From: Halorubrum sp. SD626R
GTDB lineage: Archaea > Halobacteriota > Halobacteria > Halobacteriales > Haloferacaceae
Direction: 5' to 3'
Assembly: GCF_001261915.1 (NCBI RefSeq)
Contig: NZ_CVRT01000117.1
Span: forward strand, 1 to 64,000
Length of the DNA stretch: 64,000 nucleotides
The notes beneath the pieces are model-generated. The model was not told the origin of the DNA and made no database searches. It saw only the letters and a program-made list of their open reading frames with translations. Shown here piece by piece: positions 46,134 to 62,516 of this stretch (its first letter is position 1; each line of letters opens with the position of its first letter). Made by a program: the position numbers and the translations under genes.

Positions 46134-46916
46134 CTACCGCCGAACGACCAGCACCGACAGGTCGGAGAACGGCGAGTCGTCGGGGTCGTCGCCGCCCCCG
46201 CCCTCGGCGAGCTCGCCGAGCGTCGCCCGGGTGATCCGCTCGTCGTCGCGGGTGAGCCGCTCGCAGACGAGCGCTTCCGCCGCCGGGTCGCCGCCGTGTT
46301 CGAGCAGGTCGGCGGCGATGTCCCCCGGCATCCAGTCGTAAGGACGTGGGAGCACGAGCAGGTGTCGCTTCCCGACCGCGTCCCGGAGCCGGTCCAGGCC
46401 GTCGGTGAGGTCGCCGCTCTTGTGGAGCGTGACGAAGGCCGCGTCCTCCATCGGCGTGCGCGCCCGACTCGCCGCCACCTGTATCGAGGAGATCCCCGGG
46501 ACGACGCGGAGGTCGACCGTGCCGCCCGCCGCCTCGTCGACCGCGCGCTCGACCTTCCCGACGAACTGGTAGCCGGAGTGGTTCGGGTCGCCCATCAGGA
46601 CCGCCACCCCGCGCTCCCCGCCGGCGACCCGGTCGGCGAACGCCGCCAGCGCGTCCGCCTCGTCGCGGTACCCGCACGTCAGGCAGTCGGCGTCCGTCCG
46701 GTCGCGGACGAGGTCGACGACCGTCTCGAAGCCGACGACGACGTCCGCCTCCCGGAGCGCGCGCTCGGCCCGCGGCACGAGGTACTCGGGGTTCCCGGGG
46801 CCGATACCGACCGCGTGGACGGTCGCGTCCGAGTCGCCGCCTCGCGGGGCCTCCGGGCGGTCCGCGGCGTACGCTGCCGGGTCCGGGCCCGAGTCGAGGT
46901 CGTACGCGTCGGTCAC
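46134..46916 (-). CDS. cbiE: cobalt-precorrin-7 (C5)-methyltransferase CbiE
   Basis: 260 residues. SAM-dependent tetrapyrrole methylase: AVGIGPGNPEYLVPRAERALREADVVVG (N-terminal glycine motif), VLMGDPNHSGY, and VVPGISSIQVAASRA. CbiE methylates C5 in the late corrin ring pathway. The N-terminal about 28 residues are an extra acidic leader. It overlaps the end of cbiC by 4 bases (ATGA) and ends the cobN-cbiC-cbiE operon. Confidence 0.9.
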   Translation of the reverse strand: MTDAYDLDSGPDPAAYAADRPEAPRGGDSDATVHAVGIGPGNPEYLVPRAERALREADVVVGFETVVDLVRDRTDADCLTCGYRDEADALAAFADRVAGGERGVAVLMGDPNHSGYQFVGKVERAVDEAAGGTVDLRVVPGISSIQVAASRARTPMEDAAFVTLHKSGDLTDGLDRLRDAVGKRHLLVLPRPYDWMPGDIAADLLEHGGDPAAEALVCERLTRDDERITRATLGELAEGGGGDDPDDSPFSDLSVLVVRR

Positions 46917-47635
46917 GACTCCTCCTCGCGGAGCGCGTCGAGCGTCGTCTCGCCGTTCCGGACGTCGCTGGCGGCGTGGACGAGCTCGTTGGTGAGGCCG
47001 GCCGCCACTCCCGACCCCCCGCGTCGGCCGACGTTCGTCACCGCCGGGACGCCGTGCGCGGCGGCGACCTCGCGGACGCGCTCCCGGCTCTGAGCGGCCT
47101 TCACGAACCCGACCGGCGTCGCGACGACGACCGCCGGCCGCGTCCCCTGTTCGACGCAGTCGGCGAGCGCGAGCGCGGCGGTCGGCGCGTTGCCGACGAC
47201 GGCGATCGCGCCGTCGTAGACGCCGCGCTCGTCGAGTTCGAGCACGCTCGCCGCGGTGCGGGTCATCCCGGTCTCGGCGGCGAGCTCCGCGCCGTTGCCG
47301 ATCGCCTTCCTGACCTCGCAGTCGTGGCCGCGGCCCGTCACCCCCGACTTCACCATCGTGATGTCGGTCACGATCGGCCGCTCGTCAAGCACGGCCTCGG
47401 CGCCGGCCGCGACCGGGTCGTTCGCGAACCGCATCAGGTGCGCGAACTCGGGGTCGCCGGTGGCGTGGACGGCCTTCGCACGCAGGCGGTCGGTCGGCGT
47501 CTCCTGCGGGACGAGCTCGTGGACGCGGTCCATGCTCGTCTCGGCGATCTCCATCGCGTCCGCGGTCGTCGCGCCGAGGTCGGTGTAGGCGGCGGTCCCG
47601 TTACCGCCCCCCTCCGCTCCGCCGTCAGTCGTCAT
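46913..47635 (-). CDS. cbiC: cobalt-precorrin-8 methylmutase CbiC (CobH)
   Basis: 240 residues. Catalyses the 11-to-12 methyl shift giving cobyrinate. Landmarks are ETSMDRVHELVPQETPTDRL, RAKAVHATGDPEFA (catalytic His region), VTDITMVKSGV, VGNAPTAALALADCV and ATPVGFVKAAQSRE. An added Gly-rich N-terminus precedes the core. Its start overlaps the cobN stop by 11 bases, and its stop overlaps cbiE, so the three genes are translationally coupled. Confidence 0.93.
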   Translation of the reverse strand: MTTDGGAEGGGNGTAAYTDLGATTADAMEIAETSMDRVHELVPQETPTDRLRAKAVHATGDPEFAHLMRFANDPVAAGAEAVLDERPIVTDITMVKSGVTGRGHDCEVRKAIGNGAELAAETGMTRTAASVLELDERGVYDGAIAVVGNAPTAALALADCVEQGTRPAVVVATPVGFVKAAQSRERVREVAAAHGVPAVTNVGRRGGSGVAAGLTNELVHAASDVRNGETTLDALREEES

Positions 47636-50600: not shown

Positions 50601-51569
50601 CGAGATCGGGTGCGTGATCACGTTGCCGTCGAACTCCGGGAGCGCGACCGAGAGCGCGAGTTCGAACCCCATCACGCCGGTGTCGCTCGATTCGTACCGG
50701 GAGCGCGACCGCATCGTCGTCACGGTCTGGATCACCGGCACGCCGAGCTCGTCGAGGAAGGCTTCCTCGGCGTCGGCGCCCTCGTCGTCGGCGTCGCGGC
50801 CGCGCTCGCTCATCGACAGCGAGAACATGAACGACGAGAGGACGGCGTCGACGACCGGCTCGCCCCGGTCGTCGGTGAAGTAGCGCTCGACCGTCCACTC
50901 CGCGTCCTCCTGTCCCGGCTCGTCGCTGACGGGGTTACAGAACACGGGCAGCGCGTTCGCGCCGAGCGCCTCCAGCCGCCGGACCTGCGCGTCGACGTAC
51001 CGGACGTTCTCGTGGGTCCAGTGCGACTCGTAGAACCAGACGCCGACCGTCGGCGCGTCCGCGTCGAAGGTCTCGACTAACTCGTCGTACCCCGCGCCGG
51101 GGTGATCGGGGTGGTAGACGCCCTCGGTCGGCAGCTCGATCGGGTCGTCGATGTCGCCCGCGACCGCGCCGTCGCCGTACTCCCGCGCGAGGAACCGCAT
51201 CCCGTTCGCGATGTTGACCACGCCGCCGCGGTCGAGGTACTCGGAGACCGCCTCCCGGTCGCCCGACGCGACCGTGGTGTCCTCCGACGCGAAGGCGTCG
51301 CCGGTCGCCTTCACGACGAGGGGGACGCCGGCGTCCCGGAGCTCGTCGACCGCGAACTCGTACCCCGGCATGCTGTCTTTCCCCCCGTGGAGCCAGAGGA
51401 CGACCGCTTCCGCGTCCCCGAGCTCGTCGACGAACGAGGCCACGTCGCGCTGCTCTCCGAGGTCGCCGTCGGACCGGACGACGAGGTCGATCTCGGCGAG
51501 GTTCCCCGCGGCGGTCTGGACCGCTCCGAGCTCGTTCTCCGTCGCCGTGTAGAGGCCGATCGTTGTCAC
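47625..51569 (-). CDS. cobN: cobaltochelatase large subunit CobN
   Basis: 1314 residues, full length for CobN/BchH-type chelatases. It inserts cobalt into the corrin ring (hydrogenobyrinate a,c-diamide in the aerobic route), powered by an AAA+ subunit complex. Landmarks: LWLHGGKDSMPGYEF, HWTHENVRYVDAQ, FHPSDL-like VYHDSDLWPPHDYVAFYGWLR, VHLGTHGSLEWLPGKT, and TRPGGYGAGTNKAVDEGNW near the end. The start is GTG 51569 (VTTIGLYTATE), preceded by a GGAGG 11-16 bases upstream. Divergent from chlID with only 33 bp between. Confidence 0.95.
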   Translation of the reverse strand: MTTIGLYTATENELGAVQTAAGNLAEIDLVVRSDGDLGEQRDVASFVDELGDAEAVVLWLHGGKDSMPGYEFAVDELRDAGVPLVVKATGDAFASEDTTVASGDREAVSEYLDRGGVVNIANGMRFLAREYGDGAVAGDIDDPIELPTEGVYHPDHPGAGYDELVETFDADAPTVGVWFYESHWTHENVRYVDAQVRRLEALGANALPVFCNPVSDEPGQEDAEWTVERYFTDDRGEPVVDAVLSSFMFSLSMSERGRDADDEGADAEEAFLDELGVPVIQTVTTMRSRSRYESSDTGVMGFELALSVALPEFDGNVITHPISGKERTDDAAGIGSAPKQHFPIEDRVDHAARLAVNWAELRHTPNEEKNVAVVLHNYPPSDDGIGTAFGLDSPESTVNLLDELDARGYDLGSETGGDAGSGGSGAGPTGAGPIADGAELIDALTSQLTLDDRWVAPGDVRDRSVDTVSPARYAEWFDAKGDRFRDGVLDEWGDPPDRPFAIPGVEFGNVLVTVQPPRGFGMDPEKVYHDSDLWPPHDYVAFYGWLRNAFDADAVVHLGTHGSLEWLPGKTVGLGSGSAPDGLIDDLPNVYPYIVNNPGEGTQAKRRSYAAVVDYLTPVMRRAGAYDELAELEDLARRYREAGGTEVRTDEGARLGELIRETVDELDLAVELGIGGEVDEKADVRGPDEAGTTLAEGAIEGDELSTEDLVERIHAYLTDVKNTQIRLGLHTMGEPPVDDRLVEYLVALTRLENPGGPSLRESVAGVLGVDYDRMLDAPGEYDETLGMTYGEAADEVYETSRELVRTLAAHGFDVPESESDAGPGDETTINLLVVDVDPLGDARVRGGAHDDLRDALRFVSEEAAPRVRGAEAEIPRTADALAGEYVPPGGSGAPTRGGVDLLPTGRNFYTLDPRKVPAKAAWEVGSEIAADTLARHRDEQGEYPEEIGVVAWGTPTVRTRGETIAQVLATMGVEPVWTDAGRIDDVEPIPLDELDRPRVDATTRVSGLFRDAFPQAASVIHDAVDAVVDLDEPHEMNYVKKHVEEEAEELAADGHDDPEAAARHRVFTTRPGGYGAGTNKAVDEGNWDDAADLAEVYVQWGGYALGSRGTASAAHDAFERRLGNVEATVKIEDTMEQDEFDSSDWYAFHGGFITAVTEVSGAEPASYVGDSSDPDNVDVYTNEEKVRKAMRARVLNPDWLDSMEEHGYKGAGDLSKTVDVALGWDATTGVVSDRLWRDVAEKYALDDDRADWMRDVNPWALESITDTLLEAVERGLWDADEETVDELRDRNLSVDGDIEERASRDPTEVTADDD

Positions 51570-51602
51570 AAATTATTAAACCTCCTCTGTAGTAACACAA
51601 GT
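51570..51602. promoter_or_regulatory. 33-bp divergent promoter between cobN and chlID
   Basis: AAATTATTAAA (51570-51580) lies 23-33 bp before the chlID ATG and is its TATA box. On the opposite strand the same bases form the spacer between a GGAGG ribosome-binding motif (51582-51586 region) and the cobN GTG. The two genes must share overlapping control of chelatase production. Confidence 0.6.
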
Positions 51603-53834
51603 ATGGTTGATTTGGGGACAAACAAAAAAGTTTCCACCCCCCTACCCGCGGTCGTCGGCCAGTCCGACCTCAAGCGGGTCCTCCTCGCGCTGGCGGTCGA
51701 ACCGGGCCTGAGCGGCGCCCTGCTCAGGGGCGAGAAGGGGACCGCCAAGTCGACGTCCGTCAGGGCGCTCGCGGACCTGCTGCCCGAGCAGGCGGTCGTC
51801 GCCGACTGCCCGTACGGCTGCCCGCCGCCGGAGACGGTCGAGGCAGCGGGGGAGACGGGAGGGGCCGCCGCCGCCGCGGAGCGGTGCGAGTCGTGTCGCG
51901 ATCGCGACGACCCCCCGGTAGAGACGCGGCCGGCCCCGCTCGTGACGCTCCCGCTCGGCGCGACCCGCGACCGCGTGGTCGGGACGCTCTCCGTCGCCGA
52001 CGCGCTCGACGGCGAGGCCGAGTTCGACCCCGGGCTCCTCGCCCGCGCCAACCGCGGGATCCTCTACGTCGACGAGGTGAACCTGCTCCCGGACCACCTC
52101 GTCGACGTGCTACTCGACGCCGCCGCGGCCGGCACGAACCGCGTCGAGCGCGACGGCGTCAGCGTCGCGCACCCCGCCGACTTCACCCTCGTCGGGACGA
52201 TGAACCCGGAGGAGGGCGAGCTCCGCCCCCAACTGCGCGACCGCTTCGACCTCTGCGTCGACGTCGCGGGCAGCGACGAGATCGACGAGCGCGTCGAGAT
52301 CCTGGACCGCGTCGTCGACGGCGCCGACGACGGCGATCGGGACCTCCGCGCGGAGTTCGCCGAGGAGACGGCGGCGCTCCGGGAGCGGGTCCGGGAGGCG
52401 CGCGAGCGCCGCCCCGCGATCCCCGAGGCGTTCAAGCGAGACATCGCCGAGTGCTGCCGCGACGCGGGCGTCGACGGCCACCGCGCCGACTTCGCCGTCG
52501 CGCGGGCCGCCCGGGCGTTCGCCGCCCTCGACGGGCGCCCGAAGCTCCTCGAATCGGACGTGGCGGCCGCCGCCGAGCACGCGCTGGCGCACCGCCTGCG
52601 GTCGGCCCCCTTCGACGAGGCGACCGACCCCGAGGCGATCGTGGACGAGCACTTCGACGACGCCGCCGAGGGCGACGCCGAGCCGGAGTCCGACGGCGAG
52701 GAGCCGGCTTCCGAGGGCGCCGACGCGGACGAGAACGACGGGGCCGGGAGCGACGGAGGCGAGGCCGGCTTCGACGGCGACGAGAAGGACGCGGGCGAGG
52801 GGGGAGCGTCCGGGGACGGCGACGGGAGCGACCGGGAGCGCGACGGAGCCGACGGCGACGGGGACGAGAGCGACGGGGCCGATCGCCCTCCGGCCGACGC
52901 CTCCCGCGATTCCGGACCGCGGGACGGCGACGCGGGCGATCCGGATGACCCCGACCGGTCGCCGGGCGGCGCGACGGCCGCGGACCGCGACGACGGGGCG
53001 GACGAGGAGGCGCCCGGTGCCGACGACGAGGCGCCCGCGCCGATCGCGCCCGGCGCGGCTCGGGCGGAAATCGGCGACGCGACGGCACCGGATGTCCCGG
53101 CGCCCGGCGACGGCGGCGACGAGGCGGACGCGGGCGACGAGACGGGCGGCAGGCACGCGGCGGCGCCCGCCGCGGAGGGCCGCGGGCCGACGGTCCGGAC
53201 GGAGCGCGCGGACGGGAGCGACGCCGCGGACCCGGCCGCGACCGTCCGGGCGGCGGCGCGGAACGGCCGGACGACCCCCACCGACACCGACCTCCGGCGG
53301 GCGGTCCGCGACGACGACGCCCGCGCGCTCACGGTGTTCGTCGCCGACGCCAGCGCGTCGATGGCCCCGGCGATGCGCGCCGCGAAGGGCGTGGCGCTGG
53401 AGCTGCTGCGCGACGCGTACGCCGAGCGGGACGAGGTGGCGCTGGTCTCGTTCGGCGGCGACGAGGCCGAGGTCCTCCTCCCGCCGACGGCGAGCGTGTC
53501 GCTGGCCGCGCGCCAGCTGAAGGAGCTCCCGACGGCGGACCGGACGCCGCTCCCGGACGGGCTCCGCACGGCGGCGGCGCTCGTCGAGCGCGAGGACCCG
53601 GCCGCGGCGACGGTCGTGCTCGTCTCCGACGGCCGCGCGAACGTCACGGACGGCAGCCCGACGGCGGCGACCCGCCGAGCGGCGGACCGGCTCGCGGCGA
53701 CGGACGCGTCCGTCCTCGTCGTCGACGCGGGCGAGCCGCGGGCGGGCGTCCTCGACGTCGTCTGCGAGGCGACGGGCGCGAGGCGGACCGACCTCGCCGC
53801 GCTCTCGCCGGAGTCCGTGCTCGGAGACCACTGA
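51603..53834 (+). CDS. chlID: fused ChlI/ChlD-type chelatase ATPase and VWA subunit
   Basis: 743 residues from ATG 51603. The N-terminal AAA+ domain has Walker A GEKGTAKST (about 43-51) and Walker B ILYVDEVNLLPDHL, with a four-cysteine insert (CPYGC...CESC) between them that probably binds zinc and is unusual for BchI/ChlI. A strongly acidic/Gly-rich linker (about 350-540) leads to a von Willebrand A domain with intact MIDAS DASAS (about 580). It works as the motor of cobaltochelatase with CobN. Confidence 0.93.
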   Translation: MVDLGTNKKVSTPLPAVVGQSDLKRVLLALAVEPGLSGALLRGEKGTAKSTSVRALADLLPEQAVVADCPYGCPPPETVEAAGETGGAAAAAERCESCRDRDDPPVETRPAPLVTLPLGATRDRVVGTLSVADALDGEAEFDPGLLARANRGILYVDEVNLLPDHLVDVLLDAAAAGTNRVERDGVSVAHPADFTLVGTMNPEEGELRPQLRDRFDLCVDVAGSDEIDERVEILDRVVDGADDGDRDLRAEFAEETAALRERVREARERRPAIPEAFKRDIAECCRDAGVDGHRADFAVARAARAFAALDGRPKLLESDVAAAAEHALAHRLRSAPFDEATDPEAIVDEHFDDAAEGDAEPESDGEEPASEGADADENDGAGSDGGEAGFDGDEKDAGEGGASGDGDGSDRERDGADGDGDESDGADRPPADASRDSGPRDGDAGDPDDPDRSPGGATAADRDDGADEEAPGADDEAPAPIAPGAARAEIGDATAPDVPAPGDGGDEADAGDETGGRHAAAPAAEGRGPTVRTERADGSDAADPAATVRAAARNGRTTPTDTDLRRAVRDDDARALTVFVADASASMAPAMRAAKGVALELLRDAYAERDEVALVSFGGDEAEVLLPPTASVSLAARQLKELPTADRTPLPDGLRTAAALVEREDPAAATVVLVSDGRANVTDGSPTAATRRAADRLAATDASVLVVDAGEPRAGVLDVVCEATGARRTDLAALSPESVLGDH

Positions 53835-53890
53835 GTTTTCCGCGTAGCGAAAGTTTTACAATCTAACTTTACCTTTTCCAACTCGGATTT

Positions 53891-54079
53891 ATGTCGACGC
53901 ACACCGACACCGTCGCCGACCGGTTCGCCGCGGCCGGCGCACAGATCGACCCGCTCACCGCGCTCACCGCGGCCGCGCTCGTCGCGGCGCTGGGCTTCGC
54001 CCTCCTGTTCATGCAGGAACCCATGGCCCACGAGGCGCTCCACGACTTCCGGCACGGTGCGGGGATCACCTGCCACTGA
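53891..54079 (+). CDS. cbtB: CbtB cobalt transporter subunit
   Basis: 62 residues: one transmembrane helix (about 22-46) and a C-terminal metal-binding segment MQEPMAHEALHDFRHGAGITCH, typical of CbtB, which pairs with CbtA in presumed cobalt uptake. It starts after a 56-bp gap containing AGTTTTACAATC promoter-like sequence and ends with TGATG overlap into cbtA. Confidence 0.93.
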   Translation: MSTHTDTVADRFAAAGAQIDPLTALTAAALVAALGFALLFMQEPMAHEALHDFRHGAGITCH

Positions 54080-55259: not shown

Positions 55260-56063
55260 CTAGAACGCGTCCGAGTCGAGGACCTGGTGCGGCACGTTCC
55301 CGTCGCGGAGCTTCGAGGTGTGTCGCGGGATCTCGTCGGTCACGGCCACCAGCAGCACGTCGAGGCCGAGCGTCCCCGCCTCGGCGACGGCCTCGGCGGT
55401 CCCGAACCGGATGTCGGAGGACGTGTCGCTCCGGGAGACGAGCGCGTACGCCTCCGTCCCGGCGACCGCGACGAGCCCGTCGTCGGGGGTGTGCGTCGCG
55501 ATCACCGCCGGGTCGGGCGGGGCCTCGTCGGTGACGGTGGGGACGGGGAGCACGGTGACGGTCCCGGTCTCGTAGTCGACGACGCCCTCGAAGTCGGCGA
55601 CGCCGACGGCCGCGCCGCGTTCCGCGCTCGTGACCGTGACCGCGGTCGCGGTCCCGCCGGCGGGGTTGGCGTGGAGGACGCCGTCGCGCATCACCAGCCC
55701 GACCTCGCTCCCCTCGGCCACGTCGTCGAGCGCGATCGCGGCGTCGACCTCGACGCTGCCGAGGACGTCGGAGTTGACGCGTTCGAGGTACGTCTCCAGG
55801 TCGTCGGTCCGAGAGATGAGCCAGTCGACCCCTTCCTTCGTCACCTCGTACCGGCCGCGGCCGCCCTTCTCCACGTACCCCGACTCGACGAGGTCCCGGA
55901 CGTAGTCGCTGACCGCCTGCGAGGTCACGCCGATCGTCTCCGCGATCTCGCCCTGGCTCACGGCCGGCTGGCGAGCCGCGATCTCGACGAGCACCTGATA
56001 CCGCGTCGCGCTCCGCTTGTTCTCCAAGACGTCCGGCGAGCCCCCGTCCGCTGAGTCAGCCAT
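55260..56063 (-). CDS. MarR/wHTH regulator, probably of B12 genes
   Basis: 267 residues from ATG 56063. TTTATTTA on this strand (56084-56091) sits 21-28 bp upstream, so the transcript is leaderless; an ATG at 56084 is disfavoured because it would fall inside the TATA box. The N-terminal winged helix (SATRYQVLVEIAARQPAVSQGEIAETIGVTSQAVSDYVRDLVESGYVEK) is followed by a beta-rich effector domain (DUF7839-like, about 110-265). Divergent from cbiT and adjacent to cobalt transport, it is a candidate cobalamin or cobalt sensor. Confidence 0.85.
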   Translation of the reverse strand: MADSADGGSPDVLENKRSATRYQVLVEIAARQPAVSQGEIAETIGVTSQAVSDYVRDLVESGYVEKGGRGRYEVTKEGVDWLISRTDDLETYLERVNSDVLGSVEVDAAIALDDVAEGSEVGLVMRDGVLHANPAGGTATAVTVTSAERGAAVGVADFEGVVDYETGTVTVLPVPTVTDEAPPDPAVIATHTPDDGLVAVAGTEAYALVSRSDTSSDIRFGTAEAVAEAGTLGLDVLLVAVTDEIPRHTSKLRDGNVPHQVLDSDAF

Positions 56064-56214
56064 CGTTGTTCCTTCTGCTGCCATAAATAAAGTCTTGTTG
56101 TCTATTTTCCGGAGAAGTCGGGCTGAACGGGGCTCTCAGCGTACCCTCTGTAAAGTAGAGTTTTCTTAATACAACCAAAATTGTTTTGTGGTGCGGCACG
56201 CTTGTATATCGAGA
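56064..56214. promoter_or_regulatory. divergent promoter region, regulator and cbi operon
   Basis: 151 bp. It contains the regulator's TATA box at 56084-56091, a TTAATAC element at about 56166-56172, and an imperfect palindrome CAAAATTGTTTTG (about 56177-56189) with flanking ACC/GGT, a likely operator for the wHTH protein. A related AGTTTTACAATC-type sequence lies before cbtB. Confidence 0.5.
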
Positions 56215-56802
56215 ATGCAGGCGACACGACTCCCGAACGACGCGAAGGCCGGCCCGACCAAGCCCGAGGTCCGGGCGGTGCTGGCGCGCAAGCTCGCGCT
56301 CGGTCCCGACGATCACTTCGTCGAGGTCGGCTCCTGTACCGGCGCGGTAACGATCGAGGCCGCCCGCCGCGCGGGGCGGGTGACGGCGCTCGAACGGAAG
56401 GCGAACCGGCTCGAAACCACCCGGGCGAACCTCGACGCGAACGAGCACGGCGCGGAGGTGCGGCTCGTGAACGCCGAGGCGCCGGAGCGGCTCCCGACCG
56501 ACGGCGACGTGCTGTTCCTCGGCGGCTCCCGGAACTACGAGCGCGTCCTCGACGAGGCGCTCGCGGCCGGCTACGACCGGATCGTGATGAACGTCTCTCG
56601 GTTGGAGGTCGCCGGGGAGGCCGCCCGGGCCTTCCGCGACCGCGACGTGCTCGACGAGGTCCTGTGCCTCCAGATGGCGACCGGGTACGACCTCGCGGGC
56701 GCGACGAGCTTCGACGCCGACAACCCGGTGTACATGCTCGTCGGCGAGCCCGGGGCCGGCGACGGGTCGGCGCCCGACGAGGGGTCGGGAGGCGACGCAT
56801 GA
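56215..56802 (+). CDS. cbiT: cobalt-precorrin-6B C15-methyltransferase (decarboxylating) CbiT
   Basis: 195 residues from ATG 56215. It methylates C15 and decarboxylates the C12 acetate side chain. The SAM-binding motif is FVEVGSCTGAVTIEAARR, with GGSRNYERVLDEAL and the C-terminal segment NVSRLEVA... consistent with CbiT rather than the CobL fusion. Ends in ATGA overlap with cbiL. It is the first gene of the rightward cbi operon. Confidence 0.92.
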   Translation: MQATRLPNDAKAGPTKPEVRAVLARKLALGPDDHFVEVGSCTGAVTIEAARRAGRVTALERKANRLETTRANLDANEHGAEVRLVNAEAPERLPTDGDVLFLGGSRNYERVLDEALAAGYDRIVMNVSRLEVAGEAARAFRDRDVLDEVLCLQMATGYDLAGATSFDADNPVYMLVGEPGAGDGSAPDEGSGGDA

Positions 56803-57512
56803 CCCTCTACGGCGTCGGGCTCGGGCCGGGCGATCCGGACTTGATCTCCGTCCGCGGGAGGGAGACCCTCGATTCGGTCGACGTGGTGTACTCTCCCGGG
56901 CGGCTCTCGCGGCGGGTCGCGACCGAGCACGTCCCGGACGAGCGGATCGGCGACCTCGACTTCCCGATGACGAGCGACGAGGAGCGGCTCCGCGAGGCGT
57001 GGAAGGCGGCCGCGGCCGAGATCGCTCCCGAAGCGCGCGCCGGCGACGTCGCCTTCGTCACCCTCGGCGACCCGAACGTCTACTCCACGTTCGGCCACCT
57101 CAGGCGGACGCTCGACGCGTTCCACCCTGACGTGGACGTGGAGATCGTCCCCGGAATCAGCGCGATGACGGCGTTCGCGACCCCCCTCGACGTCGAGGTC
57201 GAGGCCGGCGCCGGGCTCGCGCTCCGCGAGGCCGCCGGCGGGAGCGCGCCGACCGGCCCGGACAGGATGGTCCTGTTCAAGGTGACGGACGCCCCGGAGA
57301 CGGCTCGGAAGCTCGACGAGGCGGGCTACGACGTGCGGTTCGGGCGGCGGCTGTTCATGGGGGCGGACGAGACGACCGTCACCGCCGACGCCGACGCGGT
57401 CGCGGACCGCGACTACTACACGCTCGCGTACGCCGAGCGCCGCGGCCTCGAAACGTCGAGCGCGACGGACGAGTTCGCGGTCGACGCGGAGGCGGAGGTC
57501 GCCGATGACTGA
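56799..57512 (+). CDS. cbiL: cobalt-precorrin-2 C20-methyltransferase CbiL
   Basis: 237 residues. Tetrapyrrole methylase with YGVGLGPGDPDLISVRGRETL, FVTLGDPNVYSTFGHLRR and EIVPGISAMTAFATPL, features of CbiL, which adds the C20 methyl to cobalt-factor II. Ends overlapping cbiF by 8 bases. Full length. Confidence 0.92.
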   Translation: MTLYGVGLGPGDPDLISVRGRETLDSVDVVYSPGRLSRRVATEHVPDERIGDLDFPMTSDEERLREAWKAAAAEIAPEARAGDVAFVTLGDPNVYSTFGHLRRTLDAFHPDVDVEIVPGISAMTAFATPLDVEVEAGAGLALREAAGGSAPTGPDRMVLFKVTDAPETARKLDEAGYDVRFGRRLFMGADETTVTADADAVADRDYYTLAYAERRGLETSSATDEFAVDAEAEVADD

Positions 57513-58452
57513 CGAGTCGACCGACTCCGGTGCTTCGGTCGCCGGCGCCGGCGACCGGCCGGAAGAGGGGCTCGACCCCCGGGTCCGCGAGTACACCGCC
57601 GGCGAGGAGCAGGAGGGGATCCCCTTTATCGGCGCCGGCCCGGGCGACCCCGGACTGCTCACCCTGCGCGGCAAGGAGCTGGTCGACGAGGCCGACCTCG
57701 TCGTCCACGCCGGCTCGCTGGTCTCCAGCGCGCTCTTGGAGGAGCACTGCGCGGACGCGGAGCTGGTGAACTCGGTCGGCAAGGACCTCGAAGAGCTGAT
57801 CCCGCTGATGCGGGACGCCCACGAGGAAGGGCGCACGGTCGTCCGGCTCCACAGCGGCGACCCCGCGGTGTACGGCGCCGCCCTCGAACAGATCGACGCG
57901 CTCGAACGCGAGGGCGTCCCGGCGTACGTCGTCCCCGGCGTCACGTCGTCGTTCGCGGCGGCGGCGACGCTGCGCACCCAGCTCACGCTGAACGGCGTCG
58001 CGAACCACGTCGCGTTCACCCGCCCGCGGGGGAAGACGCTCGACGCCGCGGACGACCACATCGGCGAGTTCGTCGAGATGGGCGACGTGACGACCTGCAT
58101 CTACCTCGGCACCCACGCGGTGAGCGACGCGATGGACCGCCTGCTCGACCGGGAGGGCGTCGACCCAGAGACGCCGGTCGCGGTCGTCTACCACGCCTCG
58201 TGGGACGACGAGGACGTGATCACCGGCACGATCGCCGACATCGGCGAGAAGGTGGAGGACGCGGGGTACCGCGCGTCCGCGATGGTCCTCATCGGCGAGG
58301 CCGCGACGGGCGCCGGCTACGAGCGCTCGTACCTCTACGGCGACTGGGCGAACGGCGGGAGCGCGGACGCGGCGGGCGACGGATCGAACGGCGCCGGAGA
58401 CGGCGCGGAAACGACCGGCGCGGAGACGACCGAAACGGAGGCCGACGACTGA
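57505..58452 (+). CDS. cbiF: cobalt-precorrin-4 C11-methyltransferase CbiF
   Basis: 315 residues. Core has FIGAGPGDPGLLTLRGKELVDEADLVVHAGSLV, VRLHSGDPAVYGAALEQI, VVPGVTSSFAAAATLRTQLTLNGVANHVAFTRPRGKT, matching CbiF/CobM. An acidic N-terminal leader (about 35 residues) and acidic Ala/Gly tail (about 285-315) are haloarchaeal additions. Joined to cbiG by a TGATG overlap. Confidence 0.93.
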   Translation: MTDESTDSGASVAGAGDRPEEGLDPRVREYTAGEEQEGIPFIGAGPGDPGLLTLRGKELVDEADLVVHAGSLVSSALLEEHCADAELVNSVGKDLEELIPLMRDAHEEGRTVVRLHSGDPAVYGAALEQIDALEREGVPAYVVPGVTSSFAAAATLRTQLTLNGVANHVAFTRPRGKTLDAADDHIGEFVEMGDVTTCIYLGTHAVSDAMDRLLDREGVDPETPVAVVYHASWDDEDVITGTIADIGEKVEDAGYRASAMVLIGEAATGAGYERSYLYGDWANGGSADAAGDGSNGAGDGAETTGAETTETEADD

Positions 58453-59456
58453 TGAGCACCGACAGCGACGACGGAACGAACGCGAGTGGTACCGATTCGA
58501 CGGACGATTCCGGTGGCGGCCACTGTTCGACGGCGGACTCGGACGGCGAGACGGCCGAGGAGATCGCGATAATCAGCTTCGAGCGGAAGCTCGACACCGC
58601 CGACGAGATCGTCGAGGGGATCGGCGACCGCTACGAGTCGATCGACGTGATCGAGTACCACGGCGACGTGTTCGCCGAGCACTGGGGCGAGTACGACTGC
58701 TTCGTCGGGCTGATGGCCTCGGGGATCGCGATGCGGAAGACCGCGCCGCTGCTCGACGACAAGTGGGACGACCCCGCGATCGTCGTCGTCGACGAGGAGC
58801 TCACGTGGGCGATCCCGATCACGGGCGGCCACCACGGCGCCAACCAGGTGGCCGACGACCTCGCGACGCTCGGGGCCGTCCCGGCGATGACCACCGCCTC
58901 GGAGGCGGCCGACAAGCAGGGCGTCGAGAAGCGGGCGAAGGCGCTGTCCGCCCACGTCGTCAACGGCGACTCCACGGTCGCGACGAACCTCGCCGTCCTC
59001 GACGACGAGCTCGGCCCGATCGAGCGGCTCGACGGGCCGCGGGCGGTGCTGGTCGACGACGACGTGACGGTGCTCAAACGCAACGTCGACGACGGCGTCG
59101 TGCTCGGCACGGGCTCCGTCTCCGGCGCGGACGAGGAGCGGTTCCTGGAGGCCTGGGACCGCGCGCTCGACGAGCTCGACCGCGACTGGACCGACGTCGA
59201 GTTCGTCGCCACCGCGACGCGGAAGGCCGAGGAGGAGGGCCTCCTTGCCGCGGCCGCGACGCGCGACGTCGGGGTCGTCGCCTTCGACAAGGAGACCCTG
59301 CTGGAGTTCGAGGGCCCGACGCCGTCGAAGGCGAAGGCGCTCATCGGCTGGCCGGGTGTCGCCGAGGCGAGCGCCATCGCCGGCGGCGCCGACCACGAGC
59401 TCGTCGCGGAGAAGACCAGCCACGAGAGCGAAGTGACCGTGGCGGTGGGCCGATGA
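58452..59456 (+). CDS. cbiG: cobalt-precorrin-5A hydrolase CbiG
   Basis: 334 residues. It opens the delta-lactone and releases acetaldehyde. The N-terminal part (about 35-160) holds [29 protein letters not shown] and [55 protein letters not shown]; the C-terminal domain (about 215-334) has [22 protein letters not shown] and a [16 protein letters not shown] end. The first 35 residues are a Ser/Asp-rich leader. Followed by an 11-codon mini-ORF overlapping its stop. Confidence 0.92.
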
Positions 59457-59488
59457 CCCGGCGCGCCGACGCGGGGGGGCGCCGATGA
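59453..59488 (+). CDS. 11-codon mini-ORF bridging cbiG and cbiH
   Basis: ATG ACC CGG CGC GCC GAC GCG GGG GGG CGC CGA TGA. Its ATG overlaps the cbiG stop and its TGA overlaps the next ATG, each by 4 bases (ATGA). If translated it would carry ribosomes from cbiG straight to cbiH. It may be only a by-product of the gap, but the exact double overlap is unusual. Confidence 0.35.
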
Positions 59489-60462
59489 CCGGGAACGGCG
59501 CGGCGCCCGGCGGCGCGGACGACGCGCCGGACGAGCTGGGAACGCTGTACGTCGTCGGCATCGGTCCGGGGCTCCCGCACGCGATGACCCAGCGGGCCCG
59601 CGACGTGATCCGCCACGCTGACTGCGTCATCGCGTCGAACCTCTACCAGGAGTTCCTGCGGCGGGACGGCACGATCCCGCCCGAGTCCCGGACTGAGGAC
59701 GCCGCCGCGGCCGACGGCGGGACCGCCCCGGACGGCGGCGCTGCGGCGGACCCGTCCGGGAGCGCAGCCGATGTCGTCGACGCCGACTGGACGCCCGGCA
59801 ACGTCGGCACCCACCCGGACGGCCAGACCGTCGAGATCGTGCGCTCGTCGATGGGCCAGCAGATCGAGCTCGCCCGCGAGGCGTTCGCGCGCGTTCGGGC
59901 CGGACAGGACGTGGCGCACGTCTCCGGCGGTGACCCCAACGTGTACGGGAAGTCCGACCTGGTCTACCTGATGGCCGACGAGGACGACGCCGACGACGTC
60001 CCGATCGAGATCGTGCCCGGCGTGACGGCCGCGCTCGGCGGCGCGGCGATGGTCGGCGCGCCGCTCTCGAACGACTTCTGTACGATCTCGCTGTCCGACA
60101 AGTGGCGCGGCTGGGAGGAGATCGCGGAGAAACTCCGCGCCGCGGCGGTCGCGGATTTCTCGATCGTCCTCTACAACTGCTGGCGCGACTACGAGCGCGC
60201 GATCGAGGTCCTCCGTGAACACCGCACCGACGACGCCCCGGTGGCGATCGTCAACGACGCCGGCCGGGGCGAGGCCGGGCGCAACCTCGACGACGAGACG
60301 TACACGCTGACGACGCTGGGCGAGGCGACCGAACACGACGACGAGGTCGGCGGCATGGGCACGTCCCTGATCGTCGGCACCCACGAGACGGAGGTCTGGG
60401 AGAACGATTACGACCGGTTCCTCGTCACCCCGCGTGGCGGGCGAGACGTCGACGACTTCTGA
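59485..60462 (+). CDS. cbiH: cobalt-precorrin-3B C17-methyltransferase CbiH (first copy)
   Basis: 325 residues. Ring-contraction methyltransferase family: [92 protein letters not shown] low-complexity insert of about 45 residues (about 70-115, Ala/Asp/Gly-rich) lies in the N-terminal domain where other CbiH proteins have a short loop. A second CbiH follows 2 bases later. Confidence 0.88.
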
Positions 60463-60464
60463 CA

Positions 60465-61493
60465 ATGAGTGACACCACCTGCGGATCGACGGACGAATCG
60501 AGCGGGAACTGCGGCGGAAGCGGTGCCGACGCGGCGACGGACGCCGACGCGGCGACGGACGGCGGCACGGCGACCGAGGCGACCGGCGGGTCGTCGTCGG
60601 CCTGCGGCGCGAGCGGGTCCGGCGACGCCGGCGGCTCCGACGGCTCGTCGGCCTGCGGCGCCTCGAAGTCCGCGGCGACCGACGAGAAGGTCGGGTCGAC
60701 GGCCGACGACTTCGACGCCGACCCCGGGCGGCTCGTCGCCGTCGGGCTCGGTCCCGGCCAGCCCGAGGGGATGACGGGGCGCGCCCGGGCGAGGCTGCTG
60801 GAAGCGGACCACATCGTCGGCTACACGACCTACATGGAGCTGATCCCGGACGAGATCACCGAGGCGGCCGACGAGCTGTACGACACGCCGATGTGCGGCG
60901 AGGTCTCGCGGACCGAGGAGGCGGTCGACCGCGCGCTCGCGGGCAACGACGTCGCCATCGTCGGCTCCGGCGACCCGAACGTGTACGCGCTCGGCGGGCT
61001 CGCGCTGGAGATCGTCGAGTCGAAGGGCGCGACGGCGTCGGCGGTCGACTTCGAGGTCGTCCCCGGCGTCCCGGCCGCGCAGTCCTGCGCGGCCCGCGTC
61101 GGCGCGCCGCTCGTCAACGACTCGGTGTCGATATCGCTGTCGGACCACCTCACCCCGATGGCGGAGATCGAGTCGCGGCTCGACGCGGTCGCGGCCGAGG
61201 GGTTCACGATCGCGATCTACAACCCGTGGAGCCGGAAGCGCCGCGAGAACTTCGAGACGGCCTGCGAGATCCTCCTCGAACACCGACCGGCCGACACGCC
61301 CGTCGGCGTCGTCCACGGCGCCGGACGCGACGACGAGCGCGTCGAGATCGTCGAGCTCGGCGAGCTGGAGTCGCTCGGCGAGACCGACCTGATCGACATG
61401 ACGACGACGCTGCTCGTCGGCAACGAGGAGACGTACGTCTGGGACGGCCGGATGATCACTCCCCGCGGCTACGAGAGCAAGTATGACTACTGA
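60465..61493 (+). CDS. cbiH: cobalt-precorrin-3B C17-methyltransferase CbiH (second copy) with Cys-Gly tail
   Basis: 342 residues. Core matches CbiH: VGLGPGQPEGMTGRARARLLEADHIVGYTTYMELIPDE, VAIVGSGDPNVYALGGLALEI, FEVVPGVPAAQSCAARVGAPLVNDSVSISLSDHLTPM and IYNPWSRKRRENFETACEIL. The first about 80 residues are disordered Ser/Gly/Ala/Asp with four cysteines, each as CG (C6, C16, C47, C64). Some bacterial CbiH homologs carry a [4Fe-4S] extension, so this tail might bind metal or cluster, but no standard spacing is seen. Confidence 0.9.
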   Translation: MSDTTCGSTDESSGNCGGSGADAATDADAATDGGTATEATGGSSSACGASGSGDAGGSDGSSACGASKSAATDEKVGSTADDFDADPGRLVAVGLGPGQPEGMTGRARARLLEADHIVGYTTYMELIPDEITEAADELYDTPMCGEVSRTEEAVDRALAGNDVAIVGSGDPNVYALGGLALEIVESKGATASAVDFEVVPGVPAAQSCAARVGAPLVNDSVSISLSDHLTPMAEIESRLDAVAAEGFTIAIYNPWSRKRRENFETACEILLEHRPADTPVGVVHGAGRDDERVEIVELGELESLGETDLIDMTTTLLVGNEETYVWDGRMITPRGYESKYDY

Positions 61494-61782
61494 CGGGGTC
61501 GCCGACGGAGAGACCGGAAACGCCGAGGTGACGTACCGCGTCGCCGTCGACCTGAACGCCTGCGACGGCGTCTTCGCCTGTCTCGTCCGCGACGACCGGT
61601 TCGTCGAGGCCGACGGGGGGCTCGTCGGGTTCGACCCCGCCGAGGCGGCGGGACCGGTCGAGCGGACCGCCGACGAGGTCGCGGCGACGTTCTCGGACGG
61701 GCGTATCGACGAGGCGCGGACGGCCGCGGCGGCGTGCCCGCTCGACGCGATCGCCGTCGAGGAACGCGGAGGAGAGTCATGA
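61483..61782 (+). CDS. small ferredoxin, probably [3Fe-4S]
   Basis: 99 residues. Cys pattern CDGVFAC...ACP (C-x5-C, then C-P at about 85) fits single-cluster bacterial/archaeal [3Fe-4S] ferredoxins. It overlaps the preceding cbiH and the next gene by a few bases, so it is part of the operon. It could supply electrons for ring contraction or cobalt reduction. Confidence 0.85.
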   Translation: MTTDGVADGETGNAEVTYRVAVDLNACDGVFACLVRDDRFVEADGGLVGFDPAEAAGPVERTADEVAATFSDGRIDEARTAAAACPLDAIAVEERGGES

Positions 61783-62516
61783 GCGCCGCCGAGTCGACGC
61801 CGGACGACATGCTCGCCCGCCACCCGGAGACGGCCTACTTCTGGGGGCACGTCGCGGGCGGGGGTCGGGTGACCGAACACGGTATCGAGATCGAGGTCGC
61901 CGACGAGGACGCGGCCCGCCGCCTGTCGGCCATCGCCGGCGGGGGCACCGTGGACCACCGGATCGCCGAGCGCGACTTCGCGCACGACACGGCGGTCACC
62001 CGGCGGACCGACGAGTACACCGTGCAGGTCGTCGACCCGACGCTGGCCGCGAACGCCGCGGCGGCGCTCGGCCTGCCGGTCGGCTCCGACCCAGGCGGCT
62101 ACCGGTTCGACGCGCTCCGCGACCACCGCCGGGAGCTGCTCCGCGGGCTGCTGGAGTCGTGCGGCGTCGTCTGCTTCCGCGAGTCGAGCGCCGCGGTCGG
62201 GATCTCGTTCGTCCACGACGACGCCCGGCTGTTAGCGCGTATCCGGACGCTCCTCGACGCGGCGGGGTTCGACGCCGACGAGCCGCAGCCGTCCTCGTCG
62301 GGCGGGCACTGGTTCGGCGTCGCCGACGGCGACACGGCCGCGTTCGCCGAGTGGGTGTACGAGGGCTCCGGCGAGACCGGACTGTTCGCGACGAGCCGCC
62401 GCCGCAAGACGCTCCGCAGCGTCGAGCGGGCGGCGGGCCTCGACGTCGGGACCCTCGTCGAGCCGGCCGACTCGACGGGGATAGAATCGACTGACGCAGC
62501 GGGGGCAGACCCGTGA
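61779..62516 (+). CDS. degenerate LAGLIDADG-like protein in cobalamin operon
   Basis: 245 residues from ATG 61779. Two LAGLIDADG-like helices are seen: YFWGHVAGGGRV (about 20-31) and LLRGLLESCG (120-129), each followed by beta strands in the order of homing-endonuclease monomers (two repeats about 100 residues apart). The acidic residue near the end of each helix is replaced by Gly or Cys, so it should not cut DNA. Its place between ferredoxin and cbiX suggests a recruited binding or regulatory role. The C-terminus after about 225 is unstructured. Function unknown. Confidence 0.6.
   Translation: MSAAESTPDDMLARHPETAYFWGHVAGGGRVTEHGIEIEVADEDAARRLSAIAGGGTVDHRIAERDFAHDTAVTRRTDEYTVQVVDPTLAANAAAALGLPVGSDPGGYRFDALRDHRRELLRGLLESCGVVCFRESSAAVGISFVHDDARLLARIRTLLDAAGFDADEPQPSSSGGHWFGVADGDTAAFAEWVYEGSGETGLFATSRRRKTLRSVERAAGLDVGTLVEPADSTGIESTDAAGADP

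Follow-up and report, generated by a model that had tools for sequence, protein, structure and literature searches.

A LAGLIDADG-fold protein fixed in the haloarchaeal cobalamin cluster and associated with oxygen respiration and CbiX architecture

To our knowledge, every domesticated LAGLIDADG protein described to date (WhiA, HO and the maturases) still has nucleic acid as its target. WhiA works together with the 4Fe-4S protein WhiB (PMC4850268). In the cobalamin cluster of Haloferax volcanii, HVO_B0055 was listed as a "cobalamin cluster protein" with no function assigned, flanked by the ferredoxin HVO_B0056 and by cbiX1 (HVO_B0054), and the conserved gene order of the haloarchaeal cobalamin cluster was already reported there (PMC8305020). 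For the chelatase CbiX of Bacillus megaterium, the His-rich tail has been proposed to serve in metal storage and delivery (PMC7689651).

The window analyzed here, a 64,000-nucleotide stretch of the Halorubrum sp. SD626R genome, contains a cobalamin block in the order cobI/cbiL–cbiF–cbiG–cbiH1–cbiH2–ferredoxin–LAG–cbiX, and the opposite strand carries cbiC, cobN and further cobalamin genes (Table 1). LAG, as we call the seventh gene and its product, occurs as a single copy in this genome. Judged by sequence and position, it is the haloarchaeal cobalamin cluster protein and orthologue of HVO_B0055. Its frame, checked in the window, is open over all 245 codons; at either end it overlaps a neighbor, its ATG sharing ATGA with the stop of the ferredoxin gene and its own stop sharing GTGA with the GTG that begins cbiX, in agreement with the first-pass annotation made from the sequence alone. 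The CbiX of the window contains MSCDTC, an MXCXXC motif, at residue 265 and a thioredoxin-like 2Fe-2S domain at residues 315-390.

Three other features of this region were recorded. A MarR-like regulator with a DUF7839 domain is located beside the cobalamin block (55260-56084, minus strand) and was not found in six other cluster regions compared. Two minus-strand frames at 51566-52051 and 52064-54076 have very high isoelectric points (12) and are probably shadows of opposite-strand genes; the former nevertheless aligns at 50-60% in related clusters. An intein-type LAGLIDADG domain is located on the same contig as LAG, outside the window (G000:C117:127035-127268; L169).

Table 1. Coordinates of LAG, its motifs and the neighboring cobalamin genes in the window
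Feature	Coordinates	Strand	Remark
LAGLIDADG-fold cobalamin-cluster protein (LAG), 245 aa	61779..62516	+	HVO_B0055 orthologue by position and homology
First LAGLIDADG helix, residues 16-28 (FWGHVAGGG)	61824..61862	+	catalytic residue 28 is Gly here
Second LAGLIDADG helix, residues 110-128 (LRGLLESCG)	62106..62162	+	catalytic residue 128 is Cys here
C-x3-C: Cys128 (old catalytic position) and Cys132 on the next strand, then Lys/Arg134	62160..62174	+	
SRRRK, residues 206-210; R207 and K210 invariant	62394..62408	+	from the alignment
Ferredoxin, single-cluster, Fer4_15, 99 aa	61483..61782	+	overlaps LAG start
CbiX cobaltochelatase, 405 aa	62513..63730	+	class II chelatase core
cbiH2, corrin methylase, upstream neighbor	60465..61493	+	name after HVO_B0057 (PMC8305020)
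cbiH1, corrin methylase	59485..60462	+	name after HVO_B0058
cbiG	58452..59456	+	used for the gene tree
cbiF, corrin methylase	57505..58452	+	
Corrin methylase of the cobI/cbiL type, at the head of the syntenic block	56799..57512	+	
cbiC	46913..47635	-	marker of the de novo pathway

Single-sequence searches of the window protein against Pfam, NCBIfam and the PDB gave nothing usable, and the same was true of a LAG profile searched against PDB sequences. Among 80 aligned relatives, the Pfam family LAGLIDADG_3 (PF14528) matched 50 (best E value, 3.6e-5) and Hom_end matched seven; most of the PF14528 matches were below the curated cut-off of 22.5 bits, with members scored singly reaching 15.5-21.3 bits, and the window protein gave no match. 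The motifs FWGHVAGGG and LRGLLESCG lie 100 residues apart, and the helices bearing them were found at residues 16-28 and 110-128, where the first-pass annotation had placed two LAGLIDADG-like helices. The AlphaFold2 model of LAG, computed with the alignment (pLDDT 89.7; pTM 0.87), predicted two alpha-beta-beta-alpha-beta-beta-alpha repeats, each of these helices being followed by strand-strand-helix-strand-strand-helix. This is the fold that the annotation had expected and whose absence it had named as refuting its reading.

A Foldseek search of the model against the PDB returned 52 matches at E ≤ 0.001, LAGLIDADG enzymes among them. The best were the archaeal homing endonucleases I-Tsp061I (2dch; E value, 8.8e-7) and I-DmoI, together with WhiA (3hyi, E value 6.4e-6; 8dy9); the bI3 maturase and PI-SceI were also matched. 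Against viral structure models, the matches were homing endonucleases and intein regions. An alignment with a haloarchaeal intein endonuclease profile brought both motifs and the C-terminal part into register over 163 columns, albeit weakly (E value, 0.006; probability, 6%), and SRRRK matched the GF-xxx-RK stretch that follows the second repeat of those endonucleases. The profiles of repeats 1 and 2 showed no significant similarity to each other (E value, 0.22). Based on the PF14528 matches in relatives, the predicted repeats and the Foldseek matches to LAGLIDADG proteins, the motif similarity exceeds a chance look-alike, and the homology of LAG to LAGLIDADG proteins is well supported.

Both catalytic acids had also been annotated as lost. 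This is correct for the window protein, which has Gly28 and Cys128, but it does not hold for the family, in which only position 128 changed throughout. Across 81 sequences, position 28 was Asp in 45, Ser in 17, Gly in 14, Asn in two, Ala in two and Glu in one, whereas position 128 was Cys in 80 and Ala in one (L053); Cys132 and a Lys or Arg at position 134 were present in 81/81. The alignment thus indicates that many members retain the first catalytic acid and that nearly all have Cys in place of the second, and a variable position 28 combined with a nearly fixed Cys128 and an invariant Cys132 suggests reshaping of the active site under constraint, not decay. The most divergent homologue (L140 in genome G134, approximately 32% identical) retains SCGTICYKK. 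The mean entropy over the first two strands was 1.85 bits in repeat 1 and 0.63 bits in repeat 2, and conservation is highest in the second repeat, along its sheet and the end of its helix with the two Cys, rather than over a symmetric DNA-binding saddle. In the register of I-CreI, the residues at +2, +4 and +6, counted from the catalytic one, face the DNA side; in LAG these are Thr130, Cys132 and Lys134 in repeat 2, and their counterparts in repeat 1 vary and are mostly acidic.

These features bear on the suggestion that LAG regulates the cobalamin genes by binding DNA or RNA, similar to WhiA, with the neighboring Fe-S ferredoxin possibly serving as its redox partner in the way that WhiB serves WhiA. 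The rank of WhiA among the best structural matches, the ancestral function in DNA binding, the basic and conserved SRRRK at the C-terminus, and the Fe-S protein gene adjoining LAG, reminiscent of the joint action of WhiA and WhiB (PMC4850268), are all consistent with such a regulator. However, no helix-turn-helix match was found in LAG, the chain of which ends soon after the second repeat; the repeat 1 strand on the expected DNA side varies and is largely acidic (position 30 is Asp or Glu in 55/81); conservation is lopsided, toward the second-repeat sheet and helix end with the two Cys; and LAG tracks CbiX, ferredoxin and oxidase, and not a feature of the promoter, as described below. We consider a WhiA-like regulator unlikely, although it deserves weight, and corrin handling, which the first-pass annotation gave as its second suggestion, fits better, if unproven. 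Isoelectric point and charge were dropped as discriminators, as the neighboring helix-turn-helix regulator is even more acidic.

To determine the occurrence of LAG, 195 genomes of the same order were surveyed, of which 88 had cbiC and 107 did not. LAG was present in 83 of the former and in 0/107 of the latter, and the cluster CbiX occurred in the same 88 genomes as cbiC, so the co-occurrence with cbiX proposed as a check was found in 83 of them. Across a sample of 393 genomes from the phylum, this order was the only one in which LAG was found. Ferredoxin, LAG and cbiX stood next to one another in 111/111 loci of the first locus set, with exceptions met later in genomes G134 and G099, and ferredoxin adjoins LAG in nearly all loci that have LAG. 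A recent homing endonuclease parasite of the operon, still active or decaying, would be in keeping with the LAGLIDADG fold and the haloarchaeal intein-type relatives. Such a parasite is extremely improbable, given that LAG is single-copy, fixed in position and strongly conserved across the 111 loci, that catalytic position 128 is Cys throughout (80/81), and that no intein or intron was found around LAG; the conservation and fixed synteny refute it in practice. LAG is an integrated member of the operon, as first annotated.

Several loci showed unusual arrangements. In G134, the divergent LAG (L140:6829-7425, 32% identical), cbiX, cbiG and cbiC are on different contigs, and LAG is unlinked from cbiX. 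Apparent LAG-CbiX fusions at L073, L054, L065 and further loci came from reading through the stop codon and are two separate genes. The LAG of G099 (L141:4751-5677) has a low-complexity insert of repeated SNAT between its two repeats; no ferredoxin was recognized beside LAG at this locus, and a second CbiG is encoded elsewhere in the genome. The cbiH1-cbiH2-ferredoxin-LAG-cbiX stretch is found twice on one Haloarcula rara plasmid (NZ_CP119786; L050 and L051).

Five genomes had cbiC without LAG: G008, G060 and G501 from one genus, G397 from another family, and G294. In the first four, cbiH2 is directly followed by cbiX, neither LAG nor ferredoxin is present in the cluster, and CbiX has the MXCXXC motif with a His-rich tail replacing the 2Fe-2S domain. 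No COX1 oxidase was found in these four genomes. COX1 was absent from 6/195 genomes in total, namely, these four and two without cbiC (G402 and G443). Among the 88 genomes with cbiC, LAG was present in 83/84 with COX1 versus 0/4 without it (Fisher p, 2e-6 uncorrected and about 1e-3 (8e-4) when the genomes that lack the oxidase are treated as two lineages), figures that are rough since relatedness is unmodelled and the oxygen association amounts to two lineages with COX1 presence as the proxy. Haloarchaea that are strict anaerobes, respire sulfur and give a negative cytochrome oxidase test have been described (PMC5437934), and the COX1-less haloarchaea are most likely anaerobes. The association of LAG with oxygen respiration and CbiX architecture is new.

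The fifth exception, G294, possesses COX1, the ferredoxin and a 2Fe-2S CbiX, and a second, His-tailed CbiX occupies the LAG slot between these two. The tandem cbiX genes of this genome, one with the His-rich tail and one with the 2Fe-2S thioredoxin-like domain, are located at L137:9703-11885. The His-rich tail is mostly missing where LAG, ferredoxin and the 2Fe-2S domain occur, and the components can be found apart, as LAG occurs without the 2Fe-2S domain in L048 and the domain without LAG in G294. At L048 (5001-6793), LAG and ferredoxin stand beside a CbiX whose tail is very rich in His (24 His in 60 residues). Strict mutual exclusion of LAG and His-tailed CbiX was dropped, as L048 has both.

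The four LAG-less, ferredoxin-less genomes are also informative on whether LAG fills a missing step of the pathway, either C1 methylation (CbiD; PF01888) or precorrin-6A reduction (CbiJ; PF02571). CbiD and CbiJ were absent from 16/16 haloarchaeal genomes tested, and HVO_B0055 is one of four candidates named in PMC8305020. Nevertheless, the four genomes keep cbiC, cobI/cbiL, cbiF, cbiG, cbiH1 and cbiH2 and likewise have neither CbiD nor CbiJ, and thus LAG is not the general filler of this gap. We know of no SAM or NAD(P)H site in the LAGLIDADG fold. Overall, gap filling by LAG is highly improbable.

The species with LAG respire oxygen, and the four sampled B12 producers without the oxidase have no LAG, which suggests that it probably aids cobalt handling or corrin making in air. 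The reading we favor, tentatively and at little short of an even chance, is that LAG is a domesticated homing-endonuclease fold that acts as an oxygen-associated accessory of the cobalt-early corrin pathway at the CbiX step. A metal or corrin accessory is favored because LAG, ferredoxin and the 2Fe-2S domain occur where the His tail is mostly missing and because a His-tailed CbiX replaces LAG once. According to this reading, an archaeal intein-type LAGLIDADG homing endonuclease would have been domesticated once in haloarchaea, and LAG, the upstream ferredoxin and the 2Fe-2S domain of the downstream CbiX would constitute an extra set that goes with oxygen respiration. Most likely, the cleft that once was the active site in the second repeat would bind a metal ion or a cobalt-tetrapyrrole at a putative site in which Cys128, on the former catalytic position, is joined by Cys132, Lys/Arg134 and small sheet residues that are invariant. 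LAG would then supply or shield Co(II) or Co-sirohydrochlorin at the CbiX step, the same job as that proposed for the His-rich CbiX tail in relatives without LAG. Whereas the fold, the loss of catalytic residues, the co-occurrence, the synteny and the association with COX1 come from the data, a role in binding metal or corrin, in delivering cobalt and in protecting against oxygen is what we infer for LAG. It would be a further step to propose that the active site was rebuilt (Asp to Cys plus a second Cys) as a metal or corrinoid site for B12 cobalt insertion in oxygen-respiring archaea, making LAG the first LAGLIDADG protein with a metabolic, non-nucleic-acid job; we regard this as doubtful.

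Several observations count against parts of this proposal. The combination of LAG with a His-tailed CbiX in L048 speaks against a simple substitution of LAG for the tail. The Ala at position 128 of L053 and the unlinked LAG of G134 also count against the proposal. A joined-chain prediction of LAG and CbiX through the in-frame stop gave no confident contact (pTM 0.45, with only nine paired rows in the alignment). The same model weighs against LAG acting, with no ligand of its own, as a structural scaffold or as an adaptor for electron transfer that links the ferredoxin to the Fe-S domain of CbiX. The position of LAG, with an Fe-S protein encoded on either side in all syntenic loci, and the joint absence of ferredoxin and LAG from the COX1-less genomes would otherwise point to such a role. 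In addition, the two Cys of the former catalytic site hint at chemistry, and the Fe-S centers of CbiX are dispensable for chelatase activity in known cases (PMC7689651). Such an adaptor appears improbable.

The history of the favored CbiX accessory was addressed with a cbiG tree that included outgroups from the same phylum. The LAG-bearing clusters formed one group (93/92), and the clusters without LAG and COX1 branched below it; some branches were long, and the tool warned that they meet. The simplest reading of this tree would be that LAG was gained once, on the line that led to clusters of the oxygen-respiring type; alternatively, LAG may have been lost or exchanged in the anaerobes.

With a LAGLIDADG family established in a biosynthetic operon, the range of uses of this fold would be broader, and one unassigned gene in the cobalamin cluster of haloarchaea would gain a role that can be tested. 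It also bears on how air-living organisms run the oxygen-sensitive cobalt-early route. The question of the CbiD and CbiJ gap is narrowed, with LAG excluded as the general filler.

Compared with known systems, LAG is closest to HVO_B0055, which belongs to the same family and occupies the same slot between ferredoxin HVO_B0056 and cbiX1 HVO_B0054; no fold is given for it in the main text of PMC8305020, and the LAGLIDADG fold is assigned here. No LAGLIDADG relation of the cobalamin cluster protein turned up in the literature searched. With the archaeal homing endonucleases I-Tsp061I and I-DmoI and the haloarchaeal intein endonucleases (PF14528), LAG has in common the two-repeat fold, the motif spacing and the C-terminal GF-xxx-RK, whereas its catalytic acids are replaced and it is not mobile but fixed in a metabolic operon. 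WhiA (DUF199) is likewise a domesticated LAGLIDADG fold without catalytic acids, and its Fe-S partner WhiB in actinobacteria has a parallel in the Fe-S protein gene near LAG; unlike WhiA, LAG lacks a helix-turn-helix domain and is tied to a biosynthetic operon in Archaea. The C-terminal His-rich/4Fe-4S extension of Bacillus megaterium CbiX-L, proposed to store and deliver cobalt, would act at the same enzymatic step as that proposed for LAG. The MXCXXC motif of CbiX-L is also present in haloarchaeal CbiX, whereas LAG is a separate folded protein that is unrelated in sequence to the CbiX-L extension.
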